64,000 bases of DNA, taken from contig BDDD01002245.1 of the NCBI GenBank assembly GCA_001972305.1, positions 62,001 to 126,000 of the forward strand, read 5' to 3'. The position numbers and the translations under genes are program-made. This DNA is from Cephalotus follicularis. Lineage: Eukaryota; Streptophyta; Magnoliopsida; Oxalidales; Cephalotaceae. The notes under the pieces were generated by a model. That model was not told where the DNA came from, made no database searches, and was given only the letters and a program-made list of their open reading frames with translations. Of this stretch, positions 1 to 62,910 are shown one piece after another (position 1 is the first letter of the stretch; every line of letters begins with the position of its first letter).

Positions 1-835
1 TTAGAATTTCTTTCTCTTTTGCTCTCCCACGAATTATTCACTTCACTCTCAGCAGGAGCACTTTCTTTCTCACCCAAAATGACTGAGTCCAACCCTCTTT
101 GCCATTAAATAGAAGGATTACTTGAGAGGCAAGTCTTCTCCCCCTCTCACATGACTCAACTCCCTCTCTGGGCAGCCCATGTGCTCAAATTCAACCAATC
201 CAAGTGATGAAACTTGTTAGATCATCTTATAACATCTCATATCAACCTCCCCTAGCCTACCACGTGTCCAAAATTAAAGATTTTTACTGACAAAATGCCA
301 AAAAGTCAGATTTTACATTTTGTCTGTAGCTCAAAGCGTCGACGTTTTCTTTCTAAGCGTCGTCGGTCATGGGCTTGACCTGATTTCTCCACTTCTATCC
401 CGACTAAAGCGCTGACGCTTTCTTACAAAGCGTCACCGTTTTAAGTCTTCGTCCAGGTCAACTGACACACTTGACTTCAACGCGTCGATGTTTACAATTA
501 GAGCGTCGTCCGTTGCCCAAAGCGTCGACTCTTTCAATAAAACCGTCAGCGCTTTAGACATCTTTGTCAACTATTAGCCTTTTAGATTGACACTTTCAAC
601 ATGACATTCATCCAAAATAAATACGCAATTTCAATTTTCTTCTGAGGGCGCTGCCCCCGGGCCCCTGCCCGCTGACCGGGCAGCGGGACCCCCCGTCCAC
701 TCACCGGGCAGGAAAAAACCCCCGAACCCCCCGAGGGTGGGGTCATACTACGGGTCCCTTGAACTATTTGCCAATTTACACAATAGCAATCATTTTCCAT
801 AATTAATATCTTAGATGGAAATTTGGGTCATTACA
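1..835 (-). repeat. Element A 3' LTR, inner 835 bp
   Basis: Positions 1-835 align with 6905-7732, and both end in GGGTCATTACA. The matching 5' LTR shows that the full LTR is about 1.7 kb, so its outer half is missing here. The LTR holds a cluster of TCGA-centred palindromic motifs (about 330-560) and a GC-rich stretch near 645-745. Confidence 0.93.
330..560. repeat. TCGA-centred palindromic motif cluster, A left LTR
   Basis: About seven loosely spaced copies of AAAGCGTCGACG-like words and variants (AAAGCGCTGACGCTTT, AACGCGTCGATG, AAAGCGTCGACTC). The same cluster appears in the other LTR at 7238-7460. Confidence 0.75.
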
Positions 836-848
836 ATCTACCCTCCTT
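836..848 (-). other. Element A polypurine tract
   Basis: On the minus strand the purine run AAGGAGGGTAGAT sits directly against the LTR end, preceded by GGACAAAATTTTTGT. This is the plus-strand priming site usual for chromovirus elements of this type. B, C, D and E carry equivalent tracts. Confidence 0.85.
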
Positions 849-873
849 ACAAAAATTTTGTCCTCAAAATTTG

Positions 874-1923
874 TTAAACATTAGACTTAGAAAGATGAGG
901 GTACTCGTGTCTCATGGTGTCTTCCAACTCCCAGGTGGCTTCTTCAACTTCGTGGTTTTCCCATAAAACTTTTACTAACAGAACAGTCTTGGTCCACAGG
1001 ACTTGTTCTTTGTAATCCAGGATCTCCACTGGTTGTTCGTTGTATGACAAGTCTTCATGCACTTGAATAGGCTCAATTCTTAGAACATGAGATGGGTTGG
1101 CCATATATTTCCGCAGTAGCGATACATGGAATACGTTGTGTACATGAGATAGACTTCGTGGCAAGGCAAGCTTATACGCAACTTCTCCTATCCTTTCCAA
1201 AATCTCATATGGTGCAATGTATCGGGGACTAAGCTTTCCCTTCTTGCCAAACCGTATCACTCCTTTCCATGGCGATACCTTAAGAAAAACGCGATCTCCC
1301 ACGTGAAACTGTAGCTCTCTTCGTCTCTGGTCCGCATAGATCTTCTGTCTACTTTGCGCCGTTAAGAGGCATTTCCGTATTAGTTTTACTTTTTTGGTAG
1401 TTACTTGTACCATTTCTGGTCCCAAAAACTTTCGTTCGCCTACCTCTTCCCAACAGATAGGCGTTCGACATCTTCGTCCATAAAGAGCTTCAAAAGGTGC
1501 CATATGTATGCTAGCTTGGAAACTGTTGTTGTTAGAAAACTCAATCAGAGTGACGTGTTGTTCCCAATTCCCTTGGAAATCTATAACACAATCACGTAAC
1601 ATGTCTTCCAATGTCTGTATAGTCCGTTCTGATTGCCTGTCTGTTTGCGGATGATACGCCGTACTGAAATTCAACCTTGTACCCAAAGCATTCTGTAAAC
1701 TCTTCCAAAAGCGTGACGTGAAACGGGGATGTCGATCCGAAACGATCGATACTGGTACACCATGTAATCTGATGATCTCTTGTTCATAAATCCTTGCTAG
1801 TTGACTCAATGAATGACTGTCCTTGATCGGTAGAAAATGAGCAGATTTCGTTAATCGGTCCACAACTACCCATATTGCATTATTCCCTTTAGCAGTCCTT
1901 GGCAGTCCTGTCACGAAGTCCAT
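874..1923 (-). CDS. Element A integrase with chromodomain (fossil pol C-terminus)
   Basis: This 349-residue stretch holds the integrase core, which inserts the cDNA into the host genome. Visible landmarks are MDFVTGLP at the start, the first acidic residue in [12 protein letters not shown], the second in [10 protein letters not shown], and the glutamate in [16 protein letters not shown], together giving the D,D,E set. The GPY/F-type module follows ([39 protein letters not shown]). The end, around [17 protein letters not shown], resembles a chromodomain, which in this group is thought to guide insertion toward marked chromatin. It lies directly downstream of RNase H and ends just inside the polypurine tract. 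Confidence 0.92.
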
Positions 1924-1962
1924 ACTAATATGCTCCCACTTCCATTCTGGTATGGGAAGCGA

Positions 1963-2664
1963 CTATAAGGTTCCCTTCGGCAACTGATGCTCAGCTTTCA
2001 CTTGTTGACAAACAAGACATCTTGACATAAAGTCCGCAATTTCTCTTTTCGTATTATTCCACAAATAGAGATCTCGCAAATCTCTATACATCTTTGTACT
2101 TCCAGAGTGTACAGAGAAATTTGAACTATGTGCTTCAATCATTAGTTCCTCTTTCAATTCTGCCTGAGCTGGAACGCATAATCTTGTATCGGATCTCAAT
2201 ACGTTGTCGGCTCCCAAGTTGAAGCGCGATACTTTTCCATTCTTTACTCCCTCTGCTATTTCCTTAAATTCCAAGTCCTCAAACTGACTTTGCTTTATTC
2301 TCTCCAGTAGAGAATATTGTGCTATGACTTGAAATAGGGAAACCCCTTCTTCTTGTCTTATCACTTCCAAGTTCATCCGTTGGAAATCTCTTATCAAATC
2401 ATCCTGTGTAGTGATCATCATCGCCAAGTTTCCCATACATTTTTGACTTAGGGCGTCTGCCACAACATTCGCTTTACCCGATTGGTATTGAATGGTGCAA
2501 TCGTAATCTTTGATAAGCTCTAACCATCTCCTTTGCCTCATGTTTAACTCCTTTTGGGTGAAAATATACTTGAGGCTTTTGTGGTCGGTGAAGATTTCAC
2601 ACTTCGCTCCATATAGATAGTGTCTCCAAATCTTTAGCGCGAAGATAACTGCAGCCAATTCCAA
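1963..2664 (-). CDS. Element A RNase H and integrase zinc finger (fossil pol)
   Basis: The first residues are RNase [18 protein letters not shown] and [11 protein letters not shown], then the [18 protein letters not shown] tail that closes the domain in gypsy elements. A linker of about 100 residues follows. The HHCC zinc finger of integrase comes next, with histidines near [12 protein letters not shown] and cysteines in [11 protein letters not shown]. RNase H removes the RNA strand during cDNA synthesis; the finger helps integrase bind DNA ends. It is the middle of the same pol region as its neighbours on both sides. Confidence 0.9.
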
Positions 2665-2700
2665 ATCATGCGTAGGATAATTCTGTTCATGTGTTTTAAG

Positions 2701-6018: not shown

Positions 6019-7732
6019 TGTAACGCCCCTGACCCGAGCCCGCTAATAGCTCAAAGCGAACCTCGAGGATCGGTCGCGTTACGTTGGGTGTGAAACGTTA
6101 CATCCTTCGGTACTCTTCTCTAAAAGTACATTACATCATAAATTTCATGTCTTGCAACATAATACATAATCTTAAATTCAAACTTTACACATAACCATCT
6201 TATATAAAGATGCAAAGCATTCATAAAAATCATTTCATAACATTTCTTTCACAATTCATAAACCTTTCTCTTCATTCGAGTAATTGACTCAAATGAGTTC
6301 ATAAAAACAGTTTTGCATAGATTTACTAAAACTGATAATTCATATAGAAATAAGTTTTTTCAGATAAAACATAAAACATAAACATTAAAGTAGACATATT
6401 TACAAATTCAGAAAGCTCAAGATCATAACAATTGGTTGAGAATTGAATCCATTATGAATTTTTGAAAGTGGCTGGTTCATTATGAAATCAGGGCATGAGC
6501 AATAAAATGAAACATCAATTATTATCAACAATTAGATAGAATTTCGAGATACATAAAACATAACAGTTAAAGAGGACATATTAAGGTTTTCAAAACATCA
6601 AACCATTTAATTTTTCATCAAGAAACGAGAAAGATATGATTTAAAGAATTTTCTGCATAATCAAGGAATAAAATAGTACCCGAACAGCAATTTAAAACAT
6701 TGATTTTCATCAAGAAATCGGTAGAATCTTGAAACATGCAAAACATAACAGTTAAATAGGACATCCTAAAGTTTCAAAAACATTAAACCATTCAAAAATT
6801 CATTAAGAATTGAGCAAGATATCAATAGAACAATCTGTTGCATAATTTTGATTCAAAACAGAGGATGCTTTGTAGAAAATGGGTATAGAATATCCTTACT
6901 TTGCTTTAGAATTTCTTTCTCTTTTGCTCTCCCATGAATTCTTCACTTCACTCTCAGTAGGAGAACTTTCTTTCTCAGCCAAAATGACTGAGTTCAACCC
7001 TCTTTGCCATTAAATAGAGGGATTACTTGGGAGGCAAGTCTTCTCCCCCTCTCACATGACTCAACTCCCTCTCTTGGCAGCCCATGTGCTCAAATTCAAC
7101 CAATCCAAGTGATGACACTTGTTAGATCATCTGATAAATTCTCATATCATCCTCCCCAGGACTTCCATGTGTCCAAAATTATAGATTTTTACTGACAAAA
7201 GGCCAAAAAGTCAGATTTTTCATTTTGTCTGTAGCTCAAAGCGTCGACGTTTTCTTTCTATGCGTCACGGGCTTAACCTGAGTTCTCCACTTCTGCCCCG
7301 ACTAAAGCGCTGACGCTTTCTTACAAAGCGTTGCCACTTTAAGTCTTTTTCCAGGTCAACTGACACACTTGACTTCAACGCGTCGACATTTACAATTAGA
7401 GCGTCGTCCGTTGCCCAAAGCGTCGACTCTTTCAATAAAACCGTCGGCGCTTTAGACATCTTTGTCAACTCTTAGCCTTTTAGATTGACTCTTTCAACAT
7501 TACGTTCATCCAAAACAAATAGCCATTTTCAATTTTCTTCCGAGGGCGTTGGCCCCGAGCCCTTGCCCACTGACCGGGTAGCGGGACCCCCCGTCCGCTC
7601 ACCGGGGAGTGGAACCCCCGAACCCCCCCGAGCTTAGGCTCATACTACGGGTCCCTTGAACTATTTGCCAATTTACACAATAGCAATCATTTTCCATAAT
7701 TAATATCTTACATGGAAATTTGGGTCATTACA
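6019..7732 (-). repeat. Element A 5' LTR (1714 bp)
   Basis: Begins TGTAACGCCCC and ends GGGTCATTACA on the plus strand. The outer boundary at 7732 is set by the start of copia protein sequence, and the inner boundary by the adjacent primer-binding site. The LTR start resembles that of B (TGTAACGCCACC) and shares a CTCAAAGCGA segment with it, so A and B are one family. It holds the motif cluster at 7238-7460. Confidence 0.93.
7238..7460. repeat. TCGA-centred palindromic motif cluster, A right LTR
   Basis: Partner of the cluster at 330-560. It carries AAAGCGTCGACG, AAAGCGCTGACGCTTT, CGCGTCGACAT and AAAGCGTCGACTC words, slightly shortened relative to the left copy. Confidence 0.75.
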
Positions 7733-8571
7733 GATCTAGGATCATTGCTCAAGCTATTGGTGTTTATGATATTAGTTTGTGTAATAATTTTATTTTGACA
7801 TTGGATCCTTGTTATTATGTTATGAATATTGTTCGGAACATTGTGAGTGTTTCTCACTTATGTAGTTTGGGCTTGGAGCTTAGGTTCCAAGACATTGGAT
7901 GTCTTATATATTCAAACAATGTTTATATTGGTAATGGTGTTATCGACAATGTATTATATGTCTTAAATACTTCACAATCAAATATCTTGTCCATTGAGCA
8001 AAGTAATAATAAGAAAAGACAAAGAGAAATTGAGTTAAATAAAACTTATACTTGGCATTGTAGACTTGGTCATCTTAGTGATGCTAGATTATCACAGTTG
8101 ATTAAGGATGATCTTCTTGATATCCAGGACTTAGAGCCCTATCCAACTTGTGAATCCTGTTTATTGGGAAAGATGACCAAATCACCCTTCTCTGGTCAAG
8201 GAGAAAGGGTTATGGACTTACTGGGCTTAGTCCATACTGACGTATGTGGTCCTATGTCAGTCAGTGCGCGAGGTGGTTATATCTACTTCATAACCTTTAC
8301 AAACGATTTATCTAGGTATGGTTATGTGTATCTGATGAAACACAAGTCAGAATCCTTTGAGAAATTTAAGGAGTTCAAACTTGAAGTAGAAAAACAAACA
8401 GGTAAATCCATCAAAATACTTCAGTCGGACAAAGGTGGAGAATACCTGTCAGCTAAATTCCTCGGTTATCTTAGAGATAACGGAATTCTATCTCAGTGGA
8501 ATCCTCCTAGAACACCACAGCATAATGGTGTATCCGAAAGGAGGAATCGGACTTTGTTAGACATGGTTTGA
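7733..8571 (+). CDS. Copia element 1 GAG-pre-integrase and integrase core (fossil pol)
   Basis: The open stretch runs in from the LTR of A, but copia homology starts at 7733. The pre-integrase segment (VRNIVSVSHLCSLG) leads to the zinc finger, with HCRLGHLSDARL and CESCLLGKMTKSPF giving the HHCC residues. The core follows: first aspartate in HTDVCGPM, second in ILQSDKGGEYLS, and the glutamate in NGVSERRNRTLLDMV. It would insert the cDNA. It is followed closely by the target duplication of the insert at 8598. Confidence 0.92.
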
Positions 8572-9086
8572 TCGAAGATGTCTTTTACTGACCTTCCTGA
8601 TAGAATCGGATAAACCGAGTCCGGTGCCAAAAATGGACTTTGGTGTGTAGGGTGTAGAATAAAACAAAATAAACAATCATGGCAGCGGAATAACACCCTA
8701 TATAACAAAAACAAGTCCATAATGACACGTCCACAGATCACATGGATCACCACAGCATCTACAGAATTGAATTGGTGTCACCATTGCAAACAATGGTGAC
8801 ACACAAGCATGGCATAAAGAAGAAGGACCAAGAATTATACCAGTGGGTGAAGGCTCCTTCTTGCTTTGCCGCTACACACTTGAGTAGATTCCCTTTGATG
8901 TTCTCCAAGCCTCAGGAACAACAAGTAATCCAACCATCATCCAAGTGTATAAACTCTCACTCTCACACTTAGCTTGGAAAAGGTAAATTGATATTCACCA
9001 ATGAAGTCAATGATCAATCCACCCTAGATAAGCTCTTGCTTGGTGTATATCAAATAAAGGGAACACACAATCTGCAGAGAGAATCG

Positions 9087-9677
9087 AAGCCTCTTGCCCA
9101 GCAAAACTCCAATTTTTCCACACTTAACTTTCTGCAGAAAAATGCCTTTTACTAGCCTTCAATTCTCTCTCCCAATCTCCCATTCACTTAGGATCATGGC
9201 CTTCACTCCCTGGGAGTCCGAAGCCATGATTACCACGTTTCTAAAACTTGCAAGAACTGGAGATGGTTGCTGGAGATGAGAGAGAAATCGTGCCCACGAA
9301 GTGAGCTCGTGCACAGGTTGCACGTTCTGCTCAAAGACGTCGACGCCCTCCAAAGTACGTCGACGCCCATGCAACGTGGCACTAAAGACATCGACGCTTT
9401 CTAAAAGACATCAACGTCTTTCCATGAGTAAAGCATCGACGTCTTTCTAAAAGACATCGACGCCTTCTGGCCAGTGAAGCATAAAGAGTCTAACTCTTTT
9501 AGTGTTCTCATCTACCCTTCCAATATTGGTTAAGTAAGATCAAGCATATGTGTTTTCACAAATGCAAAATCCACACAACCGATATTTTACACCAAGACTT
9601 AATATGTCCAACATATTAAAGATCTAATCATTATAAGGCAGGGACCCTTTAAAATCTTGGTTAGAACGAGAGGTGTT
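9087..9677 (-). repeat. Internal direct repeat, first copy
   Basis: Runs from AAGCCTCTTGCCCAGC to GAGAGGTGTT and matches 10958-11549 almost throughout. It includes a motif cluster at about 9333-9470. Homology to the second copy stops abruptly after AGGTGTT. Confidence 0.88.
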
Positions 9678-10957
9678 ATAGCCACCCTTTGCGGTGCCCA
9701 ACACCGACGTTGACATAATGTCCCCAAGTCATTAGCCTCAGCTAGGGCATGACAAACCAACAACCCAGGAACACTACTCAACAAAAATTATGGAAGGCCA
9801 CGGGGAACCACTCCATGGGTTCCTACGTTAAGACTTATTATTGCAGTGAGGGAATTTGTGGTCTCATGTTTTAATTGCCGAGCCCTTAATTAATTCATTG
9901 GTTGTATTAGCCAATTCCAATTAATTACGGCTTATCATGCAAGACGTGTATCTTATGCACCTTGGACATATTTCTAAAATATGTCAATGGATCTTGGCAA
10001 GGACAATATAATGCAATGACTTGAGTCCAAAGTCATTAAAAGGTCTTCCTAGGTGTAAAGATATAAATCTATTTATTACAATATTAACCATGCATACATG
10101 GCCTTCAAAAGTCTTGTACTTCATTTCTCCTTTCCTCCATCTCTCCTTGCATAGTCTTCTTTTACAAAAAGAACAATACATTTTCGAAAAGAAAATTACA
10201 TTTTAAAAATTACAAGGAGAAATGACAAAAGTAAGGAAAAATAAATGGTGCACGCAGGCACCTTATTACAGACCTTTAAAGATAATAAATAAATAAATAT
10301 TCATTCACACAAAGAAAACCATAAACTAGGTCAAAGTCCTTTTCGGGCCATCCATGTACATAAGACTTATATTATATCCAATATAATAAAACCACAAATA
10401 AAACAAATGCCATTTATGATAACCAATTACACAATTTAATTCAAAGATTGTTAATTGACCAAACTCCCACTAAATCAAGCAATGATTTTTAATCTTCCAA
10501 GTGCCAAAATGTATAAAATCCAATTTTATCAAAACCAGTTTTTTTTTTTTATAAAAGACGTCAACGCCTTTCCAAAAGGCATCGACGTGTTTTTTGGAAA
10601 ATCATGAACAAGGCTTCGATGCAAAAACAGAGCATCAATGCGTTTCTCAAGAACAGTTGAAAAAGGCGTCGACGTCCAACATGAACATCGACACGTTTCA
10701 AAAAAATATGAACAAGACATCGACGTCTATCAAGAACGTAGACGTCTTACCTGGGAATTTGAACATGACATCGACGTCTACCAAGGACATCGACATCTTT
10801 AGTCCCCTGGGCAGTTTTTGCATTTCGAAAAATGCTGAATTCAATGGTTTAGACTATGGAATACCATTCTGGCATTCCAAAATGCACTATGCATGTTCCA
10901 AACATAATTCTAAACACATTAAAACAACATTCCCAGCATTAAAACTCAATGAAATCC
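9678..10957. other. Unique non-coding middle of the insert
   Basis: About 1.3 kb with no recognisable protein. It is AT-rich, with a T-run near 10540. The last part (10553-10800) is the densest motif cluster in the window. Confidence 0.6.
10553..10800. repeat. Densest TCGA-centred motif cluster
   Basis: About nine or ten copies within 250 bp, such as AAGGCATCGACGTG, AAAGGCGTCGACGTCC, AAGACATCGACGTCTA and GGACATCGACATCTTT. Confidence 0.8.
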
Positions 10958-11549
10958 AAGCCTCTTGCCCAGCAAAACTTCAATTTTTCCACACTTAACT
11001 TTCTCCAGAAAAATGCCTTTTACTAGCCTTCAATTCTCTCTCCATATCTCCCATTCACTTAGGATCATGGCCTTCACTCCATGGGAGTCCGAATCCATGA
11101 TTCCCGCGTTTCCAAAACGTGCAAGAACTGGAGATGGTTGCTGGAGATGAGAGAGAAATTGTGCCCATGAAGTGAGCTCGTGCACAGGTTGCACGTTCTG
11201 CTCAAAGACGTTGACGCCTTCCAAAGGACGTCGACGCCCATGCAACGTGGCACTAAAGACATCGACGCTTTCTAAAAGACATCGACGTCTTTCCATGAGT
11301 ACAGCATCGACGTCTTTATAAAAGACATCGACGCCTTCTGGCCAGTGAAGCATAAAGAGTCTAACTCTTTTAGTGTTCTCATCTACCCTTCAAATATTGG
11401 TTAAGTAATATCAAGCATATGTGTTTCCACAAAATGCAAAATCCACACAACCGGTATTTTACACCAAGACTTAATATGTCCAACATATTAAAGATCTAAT
11501 CATTATAAGGCAGGGACCCTTTAAAATCTTGGTTAGAACGAGAGGTGTT
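10958..11549 (-). repeat. Internal direct repeat, second copy
   Basis: Partner of 9087-9677, ending in the same AGGTGTT and then diverging. It contains its own motif cluster at about 11205-11340. Confidence 0.88.
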
Positions 11550-11640
11550 CTATATAAGGAAAAAGATTGTTCCATACATGGTAAGATATAATATGACAAC
11601 CCATCAAATGGCTTGTCGGGTCACTATATCTAACACTTCC

Positions 11641-12010
11641 TACCTATCTCTGGGGTTATGCCATAGATACAGCTGCTTATATCTTGAATCAGATTCCTTC
11701 AAAATCTGTGCCTTCTACTCCATACCAGGTATGGTCAGGGAGGAAACCCAGCCTGAGCCATATGAAGGTTTGGGGCTGTCCTGCTTATGTCAAGAGGCTT
11801 GACGCAGATAAGCTGGAAGCGCGGTCGGACTGTTGCAGGTTTGTGGTGTATCCTAAAGAAACAAAAGGATACTACTACTATAGTCCTATCGAATAGAAGA
11901 TATTTGTTTCGTGAAATGCTGTGTTCCTAGAGAAGGAATACCTTATTGAAGAAAACAGTGGGCGTAAGGTGGAACTCAAGGAGTTGCCATAGGTAGAAAC
12001 CACACAGGAA
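11641..12010 (+). pseudogene. Copia element 1 integrase C-terminal part and linker, broken
   Basis: Resumes copia coding sequence directly after the right target duplication. Recognisable segments are NQIPSKSVPSTPYQVWSGRK, then HMKVWGCPAYVKRLD and FVVYPKETKGYYYYSP, all typical of the integrase C-terminal region of plant copia elements. The linker toward reverse transcriptase follows. Confidence 0.85.
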
Positions 12011-12721
12011 ATGGAGGAGTTGGAGGTTAGACCTTCAACAGACACAGCTGAGATTGGATCGCAGACTGATAATAGTTCTCAGTTAGGCGGAGCTCCTTTG
12101 AGGAGATCAGGCATAATCGCATTAGCACCTGAGAGGTATGGTTTCCTCAATGATGGTACTGATGAGATAAACATCATTGAAGATGATGAGCCTGCCAGCT
12201 ATTTTGAGGCAGTGCAAGGCACTGAATCTGAAGCATGGCTAGAAGCCATGAAATCCGAAATGGATTCCATGTACTCCAACCAAGTATGGAATTTGGTTGA
12301 AGCACCCGAAGGCATAGTGCCTATTGGCTGCAAATGGATCTTCAAGAAGAAGATGAATGCAAATGGAAAAATCGAGACTTATAAAGCTCAATTAGTGGCG
12401 AAAGGGTATAGGCAACGACATGGAGTCGACTATACTGAGACTTTCTCACCTGTTGCCATGCTTAAATCCATTAGGATTTTGCTTGCTATTGCCGCTCATT
12501 ATGATTATGAGATATGGAAAATGGATGTCAAGACGACATTCTTAAATGGGCGTCTTGAAGAGGATATTTATATGTCCCAACCCGAGGGGTTTACATCTTC
12601 CGAGAACCCGCACATGGTGTGCAAGCTAGATTGGTCCATTTATGGACTAAAGCAAGCATCTCGTAGCTGGAATCTACGTTTTGATGAAGCAGCAAAGCTT
12701 TTGACTTCGTTAAAAATGTAG
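12011..12721 (+). CDS. Copia element 1 reverse transcriptase, N-terminal part
   Basis: 236 residues with copia RT landmarks in order: AWLEAMKSEMDSMYSNQVWN, PIGCKWIFKKKMNANGKIE, AQLVAKGYRQRHGVDYTETF, WKMDVKTTFLNGRLEEDIYM (first catalytic aspartate), and DWSIYGLKQASRSWN. The first 60 residues are an acidic linker. The enzyme would copy element RNA to DNA. Confidence 0.93.
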   Translation: MEELEVRPSTDTAEIGSQTDNSSQLGGAPLRRSGIIALAPERYGFLNDGTDEINIIEDDEPASYFEAVQGTESEAWLEAMKSEMDSMYSNQVWNLVEAPEGIVPIGCKWIFKKKMNANGKIETYKAQLVAKGYRQRHGVDYTETFSPVAMLKSIRILLAIAAHYDYEIWKMDVKTTFLNGRLEEDIYMSQPEGFTSSENPHMVCKLDWSIYGLKQASRSWNLRFDEAAKLLTSLKM

Positions 12722-12959
12722 ATGAGCCCTGTGTTTATCGAAAGCAAGAGGGACCTAGTATCACTTTCTTAGTGCCATATGTAGATGACATCCTACTCAT
12801 TGGGAATGATGTAGGGATGTTGCAGTATGCAAAAATATGGCTAACTAAGAATTTTTCCATTAAATATTTGGGAGAAGCCACCTATATACTGGGTATTAGG
12901 ATCTTCAGGGATAGATCCAATAGGTTGCTTGGGCTTTCCCAAAGCAGTACATCAGCAAG
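12722..12959 (+). pseudogene. Copia element 1 reverse transcriptase, C-terminal part
   Basis: Contains the catalytic box in PYVDDILLIGND at about 12775-12810, then the GEATYILGIRIFRDRS and LLGLSQS segments of the thumb. It continues directly from the preceding RT part and runs into RNase H. Confidence 0.9.
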
Positions 12960-13613
12960 GTGCTGAAGAGGTTTGGCATGGAGAATTCCAAGAGAAGCCT
13001 ATTGCCAGTAGGCGAAGGAATTCATCTTTCTCGAAAGATGTCTCCTCAGACATCTAAAGAGAGAGCACGCATGAGTCGGATACCTTATGCTTTGACAGTA
13101 GGGTCGATCATGTATGCCATGTTATGTACTAGGCCTGATGTCGCATTTGCCCTGTGTATGGCAAGTCGTTTTCAGTCTGATCCCGGTGAGAAGCACTGGG
13201 AAGTGGTCAAAGGAATCCTGAAGTACCTTAGGAGGACTCAGGATATGTTATTGATCTATGGAAAAGACAGTGAGCTAAAACTGGAGGGTTTTACAGACTC
13301 TAGTTTTGATAGTGATCCGGATGATCATAAATCTGTCTCCGGGTACATTTTTGTACTTAATGGTGGAGCTGTGAGCTGGCGCAGTTCAAAGCAAGGGACT
13401 ATTGCAGATTCTACCATAGAAGCCGAGTACATAGCAGCCTCAGATGCCGCCAAGGAGGGTGTATGGATGCGCAAGTTCATTACTGAACTAGGAGTTGTTC
13501 CATCTATTATTAGTCCAGTTGTAATATACTGTGATAACAATGGGGCTGAGCACAAGCCAAGGAACCGCGGTCTCACCAGCGATCCAAACACATCGAGCGG
13601 TGCTATCATTTAA
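12960..13613 (+). CDS. Copia element 1 RNase H (fossil pol C-terminus)
   Basis: The connection region (PYALTVGSIMYAMLCTRPDV) leads to RNase H with GFTDSSFDSDPDDHKSVSGY, GGAVSWRSSKQGTIADSTIE and AEYIAASDAAKEGVWMRKFI, then IYCDNNGA. This is the standard end of copia pol. Confidence 0.92.
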   Translation: MLKRFGMENSKRSLLPVGEGIHLSRKMSPQTSKERARMSRIPYALTVGSIMYAMLCTRPDVAFALCMASRFQSDPGEKHWEVVKGILKYLRRTQDMLLIYGKDSELKLEGFTDSSFDSDPDDHKSVSGYIFVLNGGAVSWRSSKQGTIADSTIEAEYIAASDAAKEGVWMRKFITELGVVPSIISPVVIYCDNNGAEHKPRNRGLTSDPNTSSGAII

Positions 13614-13780
13614 TCCGGGAGATTATTTGTAGGGGAGATATATAGCTAGAGAGGGTCTCCTCATAGGAGAACACTGCAGATCCACTGACCAAGGCAATGG
13701 GCACCAAGGCTCTGGAGCATCATCGTGGGACGATGGGTCTAGGCTATAGGAGTTCATGGCTTGAGGGTCAAGTGGGAGAT
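13614..13780 (+). other. Copia element 1 pol tail and polypurine tract
   Basis: The RNase H tail is still readable in DNA (DPLTKAMGTKALEHH type) and ends with the purine tract AGTGGGAGAT at 13771-13780, directly against the LTR. GTCAAGTGGGAGAT is the usual copia tract in plants. Confidence 0.85.
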
Positions 13781-21825: not shown

Positions 21826-21950
21826 TAATTCCTCACGTGTTCTTTCGACTCAGGGCATCCGCCACGACATTTGCTACTCCCGGATGATATTGAATAGTGC
21901 AGTCATAATCCTTAAGGAGTTCCAGCCATCTCCTTTGCCTCATGTTTAGC

Positions 21951-33363: not shown

Positions 33364-33457
33364 ATATTCCAAATACGCTTAGCTAGGATAAGTTGCTTGG
33401 CGATTAATGAACTATTTTCCTAAAGTCATGACTGATCGTCAATTTTCTTATAGGATA

Positions 33458-48064: not shown

Positions 48065-49399
48065 ATATAAATTCATATGTTAACAAATATACATTTTCGT
48101 ACCCAAATGATCATAATAATCATGCAAGCTTTTCAAAAAGGTTTAACACTTTCAGGAAAGCAACCATAATGCAAATCACAGTAACAATGCAAACATATGC
48201 TTAGAATACATCAAGGTTCGTTTCTAGAGTCGTTTCGGGTCTAACGGGTCCCATTCAGGCGAAATTCTACTGTCCAGAAGGAAAGACGTCGATGTCAATC
48301 CTTAAGGCGTCGATGTCTTTTAACCTAAAACGTTAACCCTATTTACAAATATTTCCAGGCGTATCAGGACCAAAGACGTCGATGTCCTCTACAAAGACGT
48401 CGATGTCTTTTTCATACCAGAGGGTATCAGTTCGCGAGCCATGATTCTTGAGGGTAAAATCCAACCTTTTAATCCTTCATATAAACGAATCCCATACTAT
48501 AAATGTATAAAGTATGCTACTGGTTAATAAGAACACAACCAGAACATCAAATTGGAATCAACAGGTGATTCCCAAGTGGCTAAAATGGCCATCTGAGATG
48601 AACATCACAGTTCTATAATTCTCCAGAAAAAGAGTCGATGTCTTTATAAAAGACGTCGATGTCTTTTACAGAACAGAACGTGTTTTCCACGATTTCAACA
48701 CACCAAGCCATTCTAAATCAATCCTTTACACAAGCAACACACGTACTCATGTAACTATACATGCATAATAATCTCAGTGCAGTACAGTAATACTTCAACA
48801 AATCCAGAATCTCAATACAATCATTAACATGCAATTCCCCATGCTATACATTAACTTAGAACTCAAAATGCACATATAAATCCAACACTTTCCCCTACCT
48901 TATTGTTCCAAGTTAGGAACAAGAAAGTCCACCTCTTTTAGTATACAAACAGGTCACAGCAGCCTCTCTAGGTCCGTCCCGTAGCTACACCAGTAGTTCC
49001 CAGGTCCAAGCTCCAAACTCCAAGCTCAACAATGGAACACACACACACACTGTTTTCTTCTGGTGTTATAAAAAGAGAGAGAGAAGTGGGGAGGGTTGTT
49101 TTTATGCAGACAGCTTCCTCCTAACCTCTTTCTTTTGTCATTTCACAGACCACCCCGAGATCTCTCCCACTTCCAGGTTTTCTGCATTTCTTTTTGTTTT
49201 CTATTCTCCCTTTTGCAGGTTGCATGATAGAATGGCACAATCCCTTGCATGTTCCATGTGAGGGTAGGTTTTAGTGCTCCTGGTAAGTACACTAACATGT
49301 TCAACACGTCGAAACGCACTTGAAAAGGCATTAGGTAAAGCCTTTAAACAATTGCCCCTTGCATGTTACTCTGCCGACGAAGAACGTGATGGCCATTCT

Positions 49400-49575
49400 T
49401 ACAAAGGCGTCGACGTCTTTCCTTGGACGTCGATGTATTTTCCATTTTTGTAAGAAAGTGTCGATGCCTTTTCTCCATGTCGACGTTCATGCCCGCGCAT
49501 TCACGCGTATCTCAACCCTCCAAGACGTCGACGTCTTTTACAAAGACGTCGATGTCTTTTCCCCAGAACAGCGTC
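49400..49575. repeat. TCGA-centred motif cluster in E LTR
   Basis: AAAGGCGTCGACGTCTTTCC, GGACGTCGATG, AAGACGTCGACGTCTTTTAC and AAAGACGTCGATGTCTTTTC. Further copies are at 48280-48420 and 48630-48670. Confidence 0.82.
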
Positions 49576-49727
49576 GTTTCAAGCTTTTGACATACATTCC
49601 ATATCCAAGGTCATCAGTAGGGTTTGCAAGCATCTTTTGAGTTCAAAACTCAACATTCTCATTAAATCAAATTTAATGATACATCATAATTTGAATTATT
49701 ACATCATGAAAAATACCGGGCGTTACA

Positions 49728-51438: not shown

Positions 51439-53403
51439 GAGGTGTGGGATACGATTAAAATAGTGGAAGTAAAAACCATAAATACTAAAGACCTAGTATT
51501 TTGGAAGTAACATAAATATAAGAATACTCAAAAGATTTTATGGGTCCATAAATCAAAGAAGTACATAACAAGGTCAATGAGAATATATGATCAAAAGTCG
51601 AAATGAATATATGATCACAAGGTCTCATATCAAAGTGGAAGGTCAAATGAGAATACTCAAAAGATTCTCGAACAACAAACGTATCATATCAATACGAACG
51701 TTCAAGCGGAATACCAATAAAGTGCTCATAGCAAACGATTAAGGAATCGATTTCACAACGGACAATTAACAAGTCCTATCAGAGTTCAATCGATAATGTA
51801 AATCAAGATTCCGAGAAAACCATTATAGAATCATATAACAAGCCATAAGGTATGATAAAATCAAGCAACGAAGGCCATTAACAAGTATAGGAATAAAATC
51901 CAACCAGATTATCAACAAATCAAATGCTAGTTAAGAATCGCAATAAAAGCACATCAATCGTTAACAAATTTCAAAATCAAATAAGATAAAGGAAGGAGAC
52001 GTTCTACTCACAATATCAGAGCCAATACTTCCACGAACTAACCCCTCGGAGCTTAGAATCGACTATCGGGTTCCAAGTCTACAACGATATTACATAACAA
52101 CATCCATAAGCATACTTTCCATGCTTATATAACGAGAGATGTATAACATGTACGTATAGGCTATATGATAGCTATATTTCCCATTTACACTTACTAGAAT
52201 TTCTAACATCCATAAGCCTCAAAGATTCATTAGCACACCATTCACATATACTCTGTTAGCAACTTATAATACATTCCGGTACAACCATAAATTTACTACA
52301 GATATCAAAGTAATAGATGTAAGTAATGAAATTACTACAGGAGAGGAAATTCACCTCCCAAGCGTTGAAATCTAGATCGGCTATCGGATTCCCTGTCATG
52401 GATCGCAAACTCCACCATTATCGATCAAGTCCTTCACTCTGCATGAAATATCACAAACACGTTATATTATATACACATACATCAAACGTCGCGCGTCACC
52501 GAATCTGCGGACAGATTCCGGACAACCCTCCGGAGTCCCGGTCACGACACCAACAGCACCTACATTGACTGAGCAACACACACTACTGATCGAAACTCAC
52601 AGCGACTCGCCCGAAAATGGGCAGCCACCACCGGCGGTGAGTTGACTCACTGAGTCAACTCGCCGGTCGTCCAACAATTTAGGCCGCTTCACAAAAAAGT
52701 GTCAGCGCGGCCTGTACTAGCTCCGGCCGAGGCGCCATTGCTCCGGCCGAGGCACCACTAGCATCCACAAGCTCCGGTCTACACATTGGTGGCCGAGACT
52801 CGCCGGGAATCGGCGCCAAAAGCGGCGGCAGAGGCGGCAGCGAGTCAACTCGCTCAGTTGACTCAGCCGCAAAAATCCGGCCGTTTCCGGCCAAATCACG
52901 CCACAACAGCCGTCGAAATGGGTAGAGGTGGTCTCCTAGGCCATGACCGCACCCATCCGCGACGCCAAAAGTGGCGGACAGCGGTGGCAGGGGCCAAAAC
53001 GCACCGACAGTGGCCATCGGGCGTGAGGAGAAGAGAAAGAAAGAAGAAGAAAAGAGGGAGAGGGAAAGCTTACCGGCGGCTGGAGGAAGACCCGTGCGCC
53101 ATCTCCCGGTCCGGCGCCTTGCGCCGTCGTCTCTCCCGGTCTCTCTCTCCCCCGATCTCTCTGCAACTCTCTCCCTCTCTGTTCTGTTTCTTCATACGGG
53201 CGCTATGCGCCCGTTACTCCTTTGTTTTATTTTTTTGTATGGCGCCTTCTCGAAGGCGCCCGAGTGTCCAGTTTTTATTTTTATTTTTTTAATCATATAT
53301 ATATATATATGTAATAATCGTAATTACTAAAATACCACCCACCAAATTTGCACACTCACGTGTTTTGCAAATCAGCCTCGTAAATGTGATACGGGGTGTC
53401 ACA
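51439..53403 (-). repeat. Element G left LTR region (about 1.96 kb)
   Basis: Its last 185 bp match the short right LTR. The left part (51439-52320) is AT-rich with short internal repeats. The right part (52540-53220) is GC-rich, with long open frames on both strands that look compositional. Three hairpins lie near 53112-53126, 53196-53214 and 53241-53260. No TCGA-centred cluster is present. Confidence 0.65.
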
Positions 53404-54513
53404 ATCTCCCCCCCTTAAGAAATTTCGTCCCCGAAATTTACTCGTATCACATGGTAAAGCAAACTGTGTATCGAATGCTCATGTATCTGTACTGGTACTC
53501 CCTCAACATCGATACATGTTTCATGGAGGTGTCAAGCCACTATCCTGTTTCCATGAAAGTCCTAAGACAAGCCCATCTTAGAACTATTCTCGCCCAAGCA
53601 TGCTTAACTGCGGAGTTCTGATGGGATCCAGTGCATTAGTGCTGATATGGTCGCTCCTCAAGGTGGTCTAGATCATACATGAGCCGAATCGACAAAAATG
53701 TGTCGTCTGGGTAGGCCATTCCAGTATGACTCATATAGCATCGTCCCTTAGTTGTGTCCGTGTCGGTCGTATAGTGAAACCCATCGCAACATGTTCCCAT
53801 ATGACGTCAAAGACTACATGAGCCACGCATTGAAGCCAACATGCACGTTTGTGGGGTCAACAAGGGCACACGAACATCATATGTGTCGAAGCGACAACGC
53901 TTGAACAACGAATAAGGAACGAAGTCCTATGTCCATTTTATATTCCGTATCCAACTCTACGAGAAAAAAATCCAGCAGCCCACAACAACGTCAAATGAGC
54001 AAAGCATACTTGGAGCACACAACTATTACATGGTCAACCTGTAAAGGCGTTGAGCAAAAATATTCCAAGGGACAATGGGATCCCGTTTCATAGGTATGTA
54101 GCATAAGATCTCAACGCAATCCACCAATAGCAAGGATGTCCGAAGACAAAGCTGAAAAGGCATGCGTATTGATCGATCGATGGATCGTCATGAAGCCAGC
54201 CAAGCCACGCATTCAGAATACCACTCAAACGCCCAACGTACACAAAGCAAGAGATTAGCTGAACGAACCACAATTCAAGACGATGAATAGTCAACAACGA
54301 ATATGCGGAAACATCAAGAGAATCCCATGCTAGCACCGTTAGTTGTGATATGAGAATGAGTACAAACTTCTGGTGCAGACAATCAAAGCTGACGATCGAA
54401 GCATCATATACAAAATGCACAAACTCAAGGCACCATAAAGGCAGGTTGCACATACTCATGTCGCCATGCGTACAAACGTCAGCACACGCAGAAGAACATG
54501 CACATAAATACGT
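52867..54513. repeat. 1647-bp duplicated segment, copy 1
   Basis: Runs from inside the LTR of G across the polypurine tract into decayed pol. It matches 59691-61337 at a constant offset of 6824, with only two differences noticed. Neither end is an element boundary. Confidence 0.93.
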
Positions 54514-55743
54514 ACACAATTGAATCGTTAGTACAAGGGCACAACAATCATAGCATACTCTTCCGCTGAAGAATATAAAGCAGCTGCAATTGCTCGAAGT
54601 TTCACTATTGCTCCACATTAAGTTGCAATTATATTGAACATCTCGTTAACAAAACTGCGACATTTCTCTTCATGTTGTTCTACCAGGAGTGCTCCCTCAA
54701 GCGACGACACACTTGGTATTTTTAAGTTCTATCGCATAAGATGAACTATGGCCTTCACAAAGACTTATGTATGACAGCTTCATTGTGCGACGGACACTAT
54801 CTGTCCCATACATCAACGTTCCCTTGTCTCAAAACGAGCAGTCATTGCGATTACAATTGTATCACTGAGCATCACTGATCCAGTCCTGCAATATCGATCT
54901 CTCCCGAAGAGTAGACGATAGAGCTCCCATGAATAAGACTGACAAGTTCACGTGCAATGATCGGAAAACTCATCCGAAGATAGCAAAAAAAGCACAAAAC
55001 TTTTTACTCAAAGCATCTGTAATCACGTTTGCATTGCGCCGAGGAACTTATCAGCGTAACTATAGTCCTTATTTGTCTCCATGAAGCTCTGCTCGAGGTT
55101 CAAATCTCTGTCTATAAAGATCTACGTAGAGCCAGCGTTCATCCTCAATAGATGAGATCATCTAAATATAGCCCTTATAAGCTAAATCCTTCACTATTCT
55201 CCGCTAACGGTTCAACTGAGTACTCAAGCATAAATATACTATACTGGTTGCCTGAATTCTTGAATAATTCGTCACTGTCAACCATTCATCACTATGATGC
55301 TATCTTGAAACATGTACAAGAACCCTGGAGAAGTTCCTCCATTGCATATAAAGTGCTCTGTCATACACATCGTGCCTTAATAGCTTACAAAGTCCCGAGT
55401 AGCTAGGCTATAGCCCGCTAGAACTCTGACTCAAACATATCGATTAATAAAGGGATATAGGGAAGATACGTTATCGCGACTAACTCGGCCGCTAGCCAAA
55501 AAGAGATGATGTCCAAGAATATCTCTGATCTCAAAATCCTTATCCTTACATCTTATTCTAGCTCTACATCAAACATCTATGTAGTAACCATAAAATATCT
55601 TACTATTCATATCCACAACGGGACCATCTTACCGACCACGGGGCATGCTACCGAACACATGACATGCAATGCATGATATGCAAGAGTTTAAAAACCTTTT
55701 GAAAACATTTCACTTTAAAAGTCTAGAGAATCTAAAACCAAAA
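53404..55743 (-). pseudogene. Element G polypurine tract and decayed pol
   Basis: The tract AAGGGGGGGAGAT (minus strand) starts at 53404, followed by GGGACGAAATTTC. Faint pol homology: the integrase finger region near 54660-54700 (compare 21475-21500) and the RNase H closing region near 55010-55130. No open domain survives. The stretch 53404-54513 is repeated at 60228-61337. Confidence 0.6.
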
Positions 55744-55755
55744 GCTCTGATACCA
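55744..55755 (-). other. Element G primer-binding site
   Basis: TGGTATCAGAGC on the minus strand, three bases from the LTR at 55759. Confidence 0.88.
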
Positions 55756-59690: not shown

Positions 59691-61337
59691 CCGCAAAAAT
59701 CCGGCCGTTTCCGGCCAAATCACGCCACAACAGCCGTCGAAATGGGTAGAGGTGGTCTCCTAGGCCATGACCGCACCCATCCGCGACGCCAAAAGTGGCG
59801 GACAGCGGTGGCAGGGGCCAAAACGCACCGACAGTGGCCATCGGGCGTGAGGAGAAGAGAAAGAAAGAAGAAGAAAAGAGGGAGAGGGAAAGCTTACCGG
59901 CGGCTGGAGGAAGACCCGTGCGCCATCTCCCGGTCCGGCGCCTTGCGCCGTCGTCTCTCCCGGTCTCTCTCTCCCCCGATCTCTCTGCAACTCTCTCCCT
60001 CTCTGTTCTGTTTCTTCATACGGGCGCTATGCGCCCGTTACTCCTTTGTTTTATTTTTTTGTATGGCGCCTTCTCGAAGGCGCCCGAGTGTCCAGTTTTT
60101 ATTTTTATTTTTTTAATCATATATATATATATATGTAATAATCGTAATTACTAAAATACCACCCACCAAATTTGCACACTCACGTGTTTTGCAAATCAGC
60201 CTCGTAAATGTGATACGGGGTGTCACAATCTCCCCCCCTTAAGAAATTTCGTCCCCGAAATTTACTCGTATCACATGGTAAAGCAAACTGTGTATCGAAT
60301 GCTCATGTATCTGTACTGGTACTCCCTCAACATCGATACATGTTTCATGGAGGTGTCAAGCCACTATCCTGTTTCCATGAAAGTCCTAAGACAAGCCCAT
60401 CTTAGAACTATTCTCGCCCAAGCATGCTTAACTGCGGAGTTCTGATGGGATCCAGTGCATTAGTGCTGATATGGTCGCTCCTCAAGGTGGTCTAGATCAT
60501 ACATGAGCCGAATCGACAAAAATGTGTCGTCTGGGTAGGCCATTCCAGTATGACTCATATAGCATCGTCCCTTAGTTGTGTCCGTGTCGGTCGTATAGTG
60601 AAACCCATCGCAACATGTTCCCATATGACGTCAAAGACTACATGAGCCACGCATTGAAGCCAACATGCACGTTTGTGGGGTCAACAAGGGCACACGAACA
60701 TCATATGTGTCGAAGCGACAACGCTTGAACAACGAATAAGGAACGAAGTCCTATGTCCATTTTATATTCCGTATCCAACTCTACGAGAAAAAAATCCAGC
60801 AGCCCACAACAACGTCAAATGAGCAAAGCATACTTGGAGCACACAACTATTACATGGTCAACTTGTAAAGGCGTTGAGCAAAAATATTCCAAGGGACAAT
60901 GGGATCCCGTTTCATAGGTATGTAGCATAAGATCTCAACGCAATCCACCAATAGCAAGGATGTCCGAAGACAAAGCTGAAAAGGCATGCGTATTGATCGA
61001 TCGATGGATCGTCATGAAGCCAGCCAAGCCACGCATTCAGAATACCACTCAAACGCCCAACGTACACAAAGCAAGAGATTAGCTGAACGAACCACAATTC
61101 AAGACGATGAATAGTCAACAACGAATATGCGGAAACATCAAGAGAATCCCATGCTAGCACCGTTAGTTGTGATATGAGAATGAGTACAAACTTCTGGTGC
61201 AGACAATCAAAGCTGACGATCGAAGCATCATATACAAAATGCACAAACTCAAGGCACCATAAAGGCAGGTTGCACATACTCATGTCGCCATGCATACAAA
61301 CGTCAGCACACGCAGAAGAACATGCACATAAATACGT
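59691..61337. repeat. 1647-bp duplicated segment, copy 2
   Basis: Copy of 52867-54513. The left end abuts H and the right end abuts sequence related to the LTR of G in the opposite orientation (61344-61381). Confidence 0.93.
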
Positions 61338-61348
61338 GCAAGTTGTTA

Positions 61349-61394
61349 TGTACTTCTTTGATATGAGACCTTGTGATCATATCAAAGAAGTACA
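61349..61394. repeat. 18-bp-arm hairpin
   Basis: Arms 61349-61366 and 61377-61394 (TGTACTTCTTTGATATGA and its complement) with a 10-base loop. Parts match 51552-51571 and 51616-51640 of the G LTR in inverse orientation. Confidence 0.88.
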
Positions 61395-61400
61395 CCTCCA

Positions 61401-62183
61401 TCAAAAGTCGAAAGAAGAGTTATTGATCATAACAAGAAGAGTTTGGTTTTCACCTAGAAAAGAGTATTTCAATGTAGAGGGCAATTCTTTGAGTTCAAGT
61501 TTCGGAGGCTCCTCAATTGATGGTTTAGGCAAGGATGTGGACAAGGGGCCCACTGGCTCTAATGGCTGCATACTAAACACATCAATGAAATCACCTCCAT
61601 CGACATCCTCTAAATCCCGCATGCAATCATTAAAACTTCCATCAAAATCAATGTCGAAGTGTGTCTCTATATAATCGGGAAATGCGTGGATTGCGTTCAA
61701 TTCATCAAAATCAGCGGAATGCTTACCCAATCGAAAAACATTAAAATCCACGGACATATTTCCAAAGCTTAATCTCATCAGACCATTTTGACAATTGATT
61801 AACGCATTGCTTGTAGCGAGGAAAGGTCTACCAAGGATAACAGGAATTTGATCATTTAAGTTTGCAACAGGCTGGGTGTCTAAGACAACAAAGTCGACAG
61901 GAAAGAAAAACTCTCCAACGTTTATCAACACATCCTCGATTTTACCTCGCGGCACTTTCACAGACCTATCCGCTAATTGCAATGTCATCGTGGTTGGTCT
62001 TAACTCTCCTAATCCAAGCTTCTCATAAACCGATGACGGCAACAAGTTCACACTTGCTCCTAAATCAAGCAAGGCATGCTCAATTTTCGTGTTTCCAATA
62101 ACACAAGAGATTGTCGGGCACCCATGGTCTTTATACTTTCGCATCGTGGGTTGTGAAAACAATGCACTAATGTCGGCTACCAA
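61401..62183 (-). CDS. Element F protease (Athila/TAT-like)
   Basis: 260 residues. CPTISCVIGNTKIEHALLDL leads into the active-site region LLDLGASVNLLPSSVYEKLG, followed by VPRGKIEDVLINVGEFFFPV, QIPVILGRPFLATSNALINC and the tail ELKELPSTLKYSFLGENQT. This order is characteristic of Athila/TAT gypsy elements, unlike the chromovirus proteases elsewhere in the window. RT is absent; other sequence begins near 61395. Confidence 0.87.
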   Translation of the reverse strand: MVADISALFSQPTMRKYKDHGCPTISCVIGNTKIEHALLDLGASVNLLPSSVYEKLGLGELRPTTMTLQLADRSVKVPRGKIEDVLINVGEFFFPVDFVVLDTQPVANLNDQIPVILGRPFLATSNALINCQNGLMRLSFGNMSVDFNVFRLGKHSADFDELNAIHAFPDYIETHFDIDFDGSFNDCMRDLEDVDGGDFIDVFSMQPLEPVGPLSTSLPKPSIEEPPKLELKELPSTLKYSFLGENQTLLVMINNSSFDF

Positions 62184-62258
62184 GAAAGCCTTTTCCGGAG
62201 TCTGAAGGATCCTCTTTTTTGTGCATAAGTCTTTTAGGACTTTTGCGTAAGAGGGAAC

Positions 62259-62756
62259 CTATTCAATGGATTCAAGCAATGGGATATTTATTTGAACTTG
62301 CTTAAATGCTTCAATGATCTTTTCCATTGCTGGGGCTTTCTTGCTTTGCAATCTTTTTGGAAAGGGAGCTGGTGGGACAAATGAACGCTTTGGTGCCTCG
62401 ACCGGTCCTTTCTTCTTTTCGTCCTCTTTTTCCTCCTTCAATTCATCGTGCGCATTCAATTGCATTGGTTGCACGGATGGGTCAGCCAATGGTGCTTGAA
62501 AATTTTCTTGCGCCAATGATTCATCCATTCGCTCGCTCACGTTCTCCATTTGATCCGCTGGATAGTAATCATTTCCACTCCTTAGGGCAAAAACTTGTTT
62601 TGATGGACCCGAGGAGGAAGCTAAATTTTGCGGATTTACAGGTTGTTGGATTTGAGCGGAATGGTTTAAGGCAGTCCTAGGATTCGGGTCAGGTTGTGAG
62701 GGCATTTTTCCTTTTTCTCTTTTGTGCAGAAAAGACGTCGATGTCTTTTGGTCCAA
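62259..62756 (-). pseudogene. Element F gag C-terminal part
   Basis: Contains a lysine/glutamate-rich linker and the VPPAPFPKRLQSKKAP and FKQVQINIPLLESIE segments that precede protease in Athila/TAT elements. The first residues (MDQKTSTSFLHKREKGK) come from a TCGA-centred motif. Confidence 0.75.
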
Positions 62757-62910
62757 AAGTTACAGGTCGAATTTGCACAAAGACATCGATCCCTTGTGTG
62801 AAAGACGTCGATCCCTCCTTCATCCCAGAAAAGACGTCGACTTCTAACAAAAGACGTCGACGTGTTTGTGTAAACCCAGAAAAGACATCGATCTTTATGA
62901 ACGGAGTCGA
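62730..62910. repeat. TCGA-centred motif cluster beside element F gag
   Basis: AAAGACGTCGATGTCTTTTG, AAAGACATCGATCCC, AAAGACGTCGATCCC, AAAGACGTCGACTTC, AAAGACGTCGACGTG and AAAGACATCGATC. It lies in or next to gag, not in a recognisable LTR. Confidence 0.8.

Follow-up and report, generated by a model that had tools for sequence, protein, structure and literature searches.

Arrays of a TCGA-centred palindrome are common to Gypsy and Copia long terminal repeats in a retrotransposon nest of Cephalotus follicularis

Arrays of short palindromes in the long terminal repeats (LTRs) of plant retrotransposons have hitherto been described as private to Sireviruses (Bousios et al. 2010, PMC2829016). According to the cited parts of that report, the palindromic repeated motifs (RM) of Sireviruses are listed at 3-14 copies per 3' LTR, are absent from 30 classic Ty1/copia elements and are Sirevirus-specific, with a CGG-CCG core except in Tnd-1; two of the 13 consensus words, those of Tnd-1 (ACAATCGATTGT) and Vitis (CGGTCGACCG), are TCGA-centred. 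Sireviruses are further recognised by several AGGGGGAG polypurine tracts (PPTs) within a long linker, and classic copia elements by one PPT, in which the G at position 3 is often replaced by T (PMC2829016). Here we describe arrays of a TCGA-centred palindrome in the LTRs of both Gypsy and Copia elements of Cephalotus follicularis. The arrays lie in a stretch of 64,000 nucleotides (assembly GCA_001972305.1, contig BDDD01002245.1, positions 62,001 to 126,000 of the forward strand), which is called the window below and is numbered from its first base.

Three other described systems are relevant, each taken here from the cited parts of the respective papers. In maize, the Sirevirus palindrome CACCGGACNNNGTCCGGTG is also the top motif in structured regions of Helitrons, and small RNAs concentrate on the palindromic Sirevirus regions (PMC10760457). 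The motifs recognised by VANC proteins differ from family to family; they are found in tandem repeats of non-coding DNA, introns among them, and also in the unrelated transposable element AT9TSD1 (PMC5735166). Heat-responsive elements were gained repeatedly and independently in the LTRs of the Brassicaceae COPIA families ONSEN, COPIA37 and TERESTRA (PMC5059998). Among the papers listed in our literature searches, judged by title and start of abstract, there was no palindrome array common to Gypsy and Copia LTRs, and none of those listed for the exact motif words dealt with plant retrotransposons.

The arrays form an LTR-confined and strongly non-random system with a helical spacing preference, common to two retrotransposon superfamilies in the window. 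When up to 3 mismatches were allowed, the 18 bp palindrome AAAGRCRTCGAYGYCTTT was found at 78 non-overlapping sites, compared with 0 sites in five Markov-simulated windows. The word AAAGACRTCGAYGYCTTT, searched on both strands with the same tolerance, matched 141 times, against an average of 0.18 and at most 2 matches in 100 dinucleotide shuffles; within this window the motif is far above composition-matched background. Every one of the 78 sites lay inside an LTR or the leader of an Athila-like fragment, with none in the remaining 37,957 bp; the Athila-like interval was drawn around its array, so its 6 sites are no independent test of confinement. With the elements lettered A to H, the gypsy LTRs contained 7 sites (C, 3' LTR), 5 and 3 (the two parts of the C 5' LTR), 13 and 13 (D) and 10 (the LTR of E and F), and the others were in the copia 3' LTR (5), in a copia-related insertion termed copS (16) and in the Athila-like leader (6).

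Two repeats that had been put forward as motif-free internal controls, the LTR of a second copia element (copia-2, adjoining the copia LTR) and element G, behaved as such: the copia-2 LTR and both G repeats had 0 sites for AAAGRCRTCGAYGYCTTT at up to 3 mismatches, and the single 4-mismatch match of each G repeat to a 16-bp variant is at background level. The gypsy A LTR had no 18-mer site at up to 3 mismatches. With the 16-bp variant AAAGCGTCGACGCTTT and up to 4 mismatches, 6 sites were detected per A LTR copy and 9 in B, against a Markov background of 1.9 per window. Motif clusters had been listed for the LTRs of A to E, copia and copS and beside the Athila-like gag; this was borne out for C, D, E, copia and copS, while A and B carry only the 16-bp variant and the Athila-like array, which begins about 20 bp upstream of an ATG of a gag/protease-like frame, lies outside any recognised LTR. 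The array-bearing features are as follows.

Up to 835: gypsy A left LTR, with a second copy of the 16-bp variant array at 333-555.
6019-7732, minus strand: gypsy A right (5') LTR, with the 16-bp variant array at 7238-7453.
About 7740-13700, plus strand: copia pol, followed by the PPT AGTGGGAG at 13771 and the 3' LTR at 13781-15389, with an array at 14501-14635.
8598-11635, minus strand: copia-related insertion (copS) of 3,038 bp inside the copia pol, bounded by TG...CA.
9333-9467, 10554-10800 and 11204-11338, minus strand: arrays of the copS insertion.
19771-20128, minus strand: gypsy B array of the 16-bp variant, adjoining the 3' end of the B pol.
21950-24190, minus strand: gypsy C 3' LTR, with an array at 23177-23469.
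29048-30512, minus strand: gypsy C 5' LTR, part 1, with an array at 30295-30498, split by element D.
30513-33347, plus strand: gypsy D 5' LTR, with an array in the unique 3' region (U3) at 30692-30848 and a downstream array at 31694-32024.
38057-40899, plus strand: gypsy D 3' LTR, with arrays at 38236-38392 and 39245-39575.
40905-41665, minus strand: gypsy C 5' LTR, part 2, with the remaining array at 40914-41003 past the D insertion.
46571-49727, minus strand: LTR common to gypsy E (gag side, left) and gypsy F (pol side, right).
49403-49559 and 48282-48666, minus strand: U3 array and downstream array of the E/F LTR.
62731-62917, minus strand: Athila-like leader array, upstream of the gag/protease fragment.

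LTR retrotransposons of plant-like types are nested in the window. Thirty of its 36 open reading frames (ORFs) of at least 150 amino acids (aa) were scanned with Pfam; 22 had retrotransposon domains and 8 had no match. Gypsy-type proteins (RVP_2, RVT_1, RT_RNaseH, Integrase_H2C2, rve and SH3_Tf2-1) were encoded on both strands, and copia-type proteins (gag_pre-integrs, rve and RVT_2) at 7.7-12.7 kb. The pol ends of D and F gave weak chromodomain matches (E-values 1.1e-3 and 2.1e-4, both under the Pfam cut-off), with which an assignment of the gypsy elements to the chromoviruses would be compatible. In self-blastn comparisons, the nucleotide identity of pol was 80% for A and B, 78% for A and the H-like copy, 82% for D and E and 83% for D and F, and 64-70% among the groups A/B/H, C and D/E/F. 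Because their pol regions are mutually alignable, the gypsy elements are one clade of three groups; the view that the motif is shared by unrelated families therefore stands across Gypsy and Copia and not among the gypsy families, which are related at about 64-83% identity. The array at 19771-20128, for which LTR ends were not found, is presumed to belong to the B 3' LTR. Judged by its sequence, the copS insertion is a solo-LTR-like relative of the copia LTR: it is flanked by a 5-bp target duplication, CTTCC (or the one-base-shifted equivalent TTCCT), inside the copia pol, and it matches parts of the LTR of its host element in inverted orientation at 82-84% identity (self-blastn). A 600-bp segment of copS is directly duplicated (9082-9680 and 10953-11552, 96%) together with a second copy of its array.

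The spacing of the palindromes was clearly non-random. Adjacent centres lay 19-22 bp apart in 24 of 48 spacings, compared with an average of 10.7 and at most 21 in 20,000 draws in which sites were placed at random between the same array ends with an 18-bp minimum (the downstream E array was halved, dropping a 235-bp gap). A larger set of 58 spacings was built from sites with up to 5 mismatches, using the right LTR of A only and one 21-bp C spacing from the other LTR copy, and omitting the 235-bp gap, the upstream E array and the copS array at 11204-11338 (the last two being homologues of the D and copia arrays). Here, doublets of 19-22 bp were present in all nine arrays, A and B included, and made up 28 of the 58 spacings. 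As A and B have doublets of 20-22 bp with a 16-bp palindrome, it is the centre distance, approximately two helical turns, that is kept and not the length of the spacer. The other spacings of up to 56 bp (n=24) fitted periods of 10.25-10.75 bp best, and at 10.5 bp the phase was near 0 (R 0.48, p about 0.004, uncorrected for the period scan). In addition, a 20+31 (about 51 bp) pattern recurred in the copia, copS, Athila-like and E arrays. The preference for neighbours at 19-22 bp is newly described here for the present arrays.

The make-up of the motif was determined from 58 non-redundant sites, obtained from the 88 sites with up to 4 mismatches right of position 9000 by removing 30 second copies (those of the D 3' LTR and the C 5' LTR and one copS duplicate). 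The TCGA centre was nearly invariant (T 58, C 55, G 56, A 58); variation was seen at position 7 (A or G) and at position 12 (C or T). The 16-bp variant of A and B has the same CGTCGACG core, with the AAAG and CTTT arms one base nearer. The observed/expected ratio of CpG was 0.93-1.71 in ten array intervals versus 0.60-0.65 in the rest of the D and E LTRs, and all 13 motif differences within the D LTR pair were transitions, as would be expected from the decay of methylated CpGs. At least one flanking CpG was kept in 54 of the 58 palindromes (p 0.006 overall); because this excess was gone within families (p 0.39), it is an effect of family polarity. On the sense strand, the ratio of ATCGAC to GTCGAT cores was 4:2 in C, 10:1 in D and 9:0 in E, and among asymmetric sites the ratio of GTCGAT to ATCGAC was 3:0 in copia and 8:0 in copS.

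The arrays also occupied recurrent positions. TATA-like CATAAAAA boxes were located 692 bp (D) and 621 bp (E) into the LTR, with one array upstream and one downstream of the box; more TATA-like matches lie further down. In C, a TATA-like TATATAAG was present 168 bp into the LTR and the array was only downstream, and in A and B the array seen was upstream of a TATA-like match. A candidate splice donor (AAG/GTAGGG) was found in the LTRs of C, D and E, and a candidate acceptor (CTTATAG) right before the gag ATG; the C 3' LTR copy reads AATGTAGGA at the donor. The distance from the candidate donor to the start of the downstream array was similar in the three elements (269 bp in C, 241 in D and 232 in E), although the D and E LTRs align poorly there (MAFFT) and the matches printed by self-blastn paired the C LTR with neither that of D nor that of E. 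The leader of D may be spliced at these candidate sites, in which case the downstream array would be intronic.

31453-33453, plus strand: candidate leader intron of D (donor AAAAG/GTAGGG, acceptor TTCTTATAG), holding the downstream array.

The arrays resemble the Sirevirus RM in being CpG-rich clusters of short palindromes in LTRs with very diverged flanks (PMC2829016). Their palindrome copy numbers and CpG richness are like those of RM. RM cluster upstream of the TATA box; here the B array and a single array in each of D and E lay upstream of a TATA-like box, and C, D and E had an array downstream. The arrays differ in the motif itself (AAAG-CRTCGAYG-CTTT, with the core CRTCGAYG and no CGG-CCG), in its presence in Gypsy LTRs as well as one copia, and in the D and E layout of two arrays per LTR, of which one follows the TATA-like box. 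With RVT_1 and RVP_2 among their domains, the gypsy carriers cannot be Sireviruses. In the copia element, the region 13000-13785 had no AGGGGGAG and one AGTGGGAG PPT, ten bases before the LTR start, so this element lacks the multiple PPTs by which Sireviruses are recognised. Lacking these defining features, the arrays were not classed as Sirevirus RM. The initial annotation knew of no described system of this kind; CpG-rich palindrome arrays in LTRs have been described for Sireviruses (PMC2829016), and what sets the present case apart is their occurrence in Gypsy and in a copia element that is not Sirevirus-like.

The maize case is similar in that one palindrome spans superfamilies of transposable elements in one genome. 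It concerns Copia and Helitron and involves secondary structure and small RNAs (PMC10760457), whereas the present motif concerns Gypsy and Copia and the gypsy stretches that were folded did so weakly to moderately. The VANC targets of VANDAL elements share with the present arrays dense short non-coding motifs, tandem growth and family dialects; in contrast, VANDALs, which are DNA transposons, carry a VANC gene of their own, and their motif is non-palindromic (PMC5735166, PMC10398659). We did not class the arrays as VANC targets, because no VANC-like protein was recognised by Pfam among the 30 ORFs. Heat-responsive elements likewise form clustered sites in several LTR families, where they bind a host factor, but these are nGAAn repeats reported in Brassicaceae Copia (PMC5059998), unlike the motif found here in Gypsy and Copia.

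Conservation was followed between elements and in the spacers. All five sites of the U3 arrays aligned between D and E (MAFFT), and identity dropped to 28-45% in the next four 100-column windows. Columns with the motif in both D and E were more often identical than other aligned columns (0.74 vs 0.59, p 0.016). Spacer words common to several families were close to the level of single-base shuffles (6-mers in four families, 2 vs 2.4; 7-mers in three families, 4 vs 2.8; 8-mers, 0 vs 0.2). The 6-mers in three families were slightly above it (39 vs 30.6, sd 5.2), and AAAAAT was present in the spacers of five families (expected 0.13). These comparisons suggest that the arrays were probably inherited with turnover within the gypsy clade and probably gained separately in copia.

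We favour, at about even confidence, the reading that the arrays are cis-regulatory modules of dyad sites bound by a single trans-acting protein; gypsy would have kept these sites, and copia and the Athila-like element would probably have gained them separately. The half-site would be approximately AAAGRCRTCGA, and the binder would be a sequence-specific DNA-binding protein acting in trans on several families, a transcription or chromatin factor of the host being the simplest candidate; one such protein may control all array-bearing families. Its sites would be paired two helical turns apart, with more sites often three to five turns off, so that bound dimers would share one face of the DNA. 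In D and E, the upstream array would precede the TATA-like box and the downstream array would lie in the candidate leader intron, and the module would work like an LTR enhancer or operator, in activation or in relief from silencing. The gypsy clade would have kept it as the LTR sequence around it diverged. Copia and the Athila-like element would probably have acquired it by point mutation and local tandem duplication under the same selection, that is, by convergence rather than old transfer; the repeated gain of heat-responsive elements in Brassicaceae COPIA (PMC5059998) is a precedent for such separate gains. The shared regulatory grammar that had been considered for these LTRs thus gains support from spacing and position. 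One motif with the same array design in chromovirus-like Gypsy elements and in a copia element without the PPT signature of Sireviruses suggests that unrelated retrotransposons may become subject to one control signal. A single binder, an effect of half-turn changes in spacing and an intronic enhancer are predicted, and the arrangement would bear on joint escape from, or invitation of, silencing. The fuller proposal, a cross-superfamily 'retro-operator' in which one protein and helically phased pairs of TCGA dyads define a Gypsy/Copia/Athila-like regulon assembled by independent gains, is somewhat more tentative.

Several results weigh against a protein-bound module. When spacings of up to 95 bp were added (n=30), R was reduced to 0.33 at 10.5 bp (p 0.04) and the best value was 0.40 at 12.25 bp. 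The spacing null assumes independent sites and arrays may grow by tandem duplication; given the 51-bp units of the second copS array, regular spacing could arise without a protein. The D-E constraint is weak, and the alignment itself favours motifs. In none of six LTR comparisons was the motif significantly better kept than its flanks: divergence of the D LTR pair was 0.048 in the motif and 0.039 in the flanks, the motif was worse kept in the left part of C (0.151 vs 0.078, p 0.010), and the difference between the copia LTR and the copS insertion, a between-element comparison, was not significant (0.139 vs 0.171, p 0.50). The motif is therefore not significantly protected within LTR pairs or between copia and copS, and constraint is visible only between D and E. 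Moreover, no TATA match was found in the copia LTR by the pattern used, and the splice and TATA words were picked after reading the sequence and have many further matches in the window.

Other explanations were weighed against the same data. An array of single origin might have been passed on as a block among gypsy, copia and the Athila-like element, through recombination or template switching, and its spacers would have decayed later. The single 18-bp consensus in two superfamilies, the recurring pattern of about 51 bp, which fits an ancestral block, and the slight excess of 6-mers together with AAAAAT point in this direction. The remaining spacer words were at shuffled level, however, self-blastn printed no match of at least 80 bp at 1e-10 between arrays of different superfamilies, and the core polarity differs between gypsy (ATCGAC-rich) and copia/copS (GTCGAT), which makes block transfer unlikely. 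Growth of an ordinary minisatellite, in which 51-bp units containing the palindrome by chance were duplicated locally without function, agrees with the second copS array, where three units of close to 51 bp have similar spacers, and with the duplicated 600-bp LTR segment of copS. This is the least probable of the explanations considered, as it leaves unexplained one consensus in two superfamilies, the absence of the motif outside LTRs and the leader, and its retention in D and E while spacers diverged; the mobile minisatellite of the initial annotation is likewise disfavoured by spacer words near the shuffled level between families. A VANDAL/VANC-like system, in which an element-encoded protein binds the arrays and removes methylation and other families parasitise it via the motif, would suit CpG-rich arrays of two motif dialects that for the most part are non-coding and in part lie in a candidate intron, given that VANC motifs are known from non-coding tandem repeats, introns and the unrelated AT9TSD1 (PMC5735166). 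We consider it quite improbable: VANDALs are DNA transposons, and the 30 ORFs scanned yielded ordinary retrotransposon domains in 22 cases, no match in 8 and no extra DNA-binding domain, although the lack of such a match is weak counter-evidence in broken elements.

The palindromes might instead act as RNA, forming stem-loops in LTR transcripts that seed small interfering RNAs or regulate the RNA, as proposed for maize Sireviruses, on whose palindromes small RNAs are found (PMC10760457). Seven array stretches were folded, none of them from C, from B, from the downstream array of E or from the second array of copS. The two copia-type stretches folded far better than shuffles (z -8.35 and -10.29), but the five others did so weakly to moderately (z -0.96, -1.04, -2.16, -3.08 and -3.27), and one of three motif-free control stretches was also strong (z -6.07). 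That motif-free stem lies in the copia LTR at 14700-14849, next to the array. In the copia-type arrays, sense-strand pairing of doublets exceeded antisense-strand pairing (15.5 vs 14.5 and 15.7 vs 13.2 of 18), and slightly so in the Athila-like array (13.3 vs 12.3), whereas gypsy doublets paired worse on the sense strand (13.3-14.0) than on the antisense strand (15.5-15.8), the commonest gypsy form having an A-C mismatch beside the core on the sense strand. An RNA module is unlikely as a general explanation; the arrays of copia may have an RNA role, without this explaining all families. The silencing target suggested earlier, or a hairpin target, may apply, with strong folding confined, among the seven stretches, to the copia arrays.

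With regard to the protein favoured above, a plant bZIP factor had been suggested from the ACGT core. ACGT was present in 35 of the 58 non-redundant sites (60%), which is not significantly commoner than under random re-pairing of half-sites (p 0.15 overall, 0.21 within families), so a bZIP factor is not specifically indicated as the binder. The AAAG ends of the motif are reminiscent of Dof sites.

Some further observations concern individual arrays and elements. The D insertion is flanked by AGACA and is located in a motif-like word of the C 5' LTR array. Palindromes as the insertion target of D were considered and rejected: this is one event only, and plant LTR elements are reported to have a slight preference for palindromes at insertion (PMC6911290, cited part). 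The tight doublet pattern had 0 matches in viral_contigs, where no relatives of the D and copia reverse transcriptases were confirmed either. Three single doublet matches in bacterial records were attributed to chance, as these records had 0, 1 and 1 sites at up to 3 mismatches and no array. For the gag/protease fragment, presumably Athila-like as it is named here, Pfam recognised solely an aspartyl protease (61404-62258), and another frame of 115 aa, starting from an ATG (62666-63013, minus strand), is open across the whole array; it may be coding or open by chance.

The E gag and the F pol have the same orientation around one LTR, as from LTR-LTR recombination or a tandem arrangement, and within this LTR a segment of 391 bp is duplicated in tandem (47280-48064, 98% identical, self-blastn). 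Element G consists of 1,650-bp direct repeats (52867-54516 and 59691-61340) that are 99.8% identical, a very recent LTR-like pair, and of an internal region of about 5.2 kb without an ORF of more than 119 aa wholly inside; it is possibly a non-autonomous element. At 55755 on the minus strand of this region, there is a word resembling an LTR end plus primer-binding site (GGTGTGACATTTTGGTATCAGAGC), suggesting that a further gypsy fragment is nested inside G.

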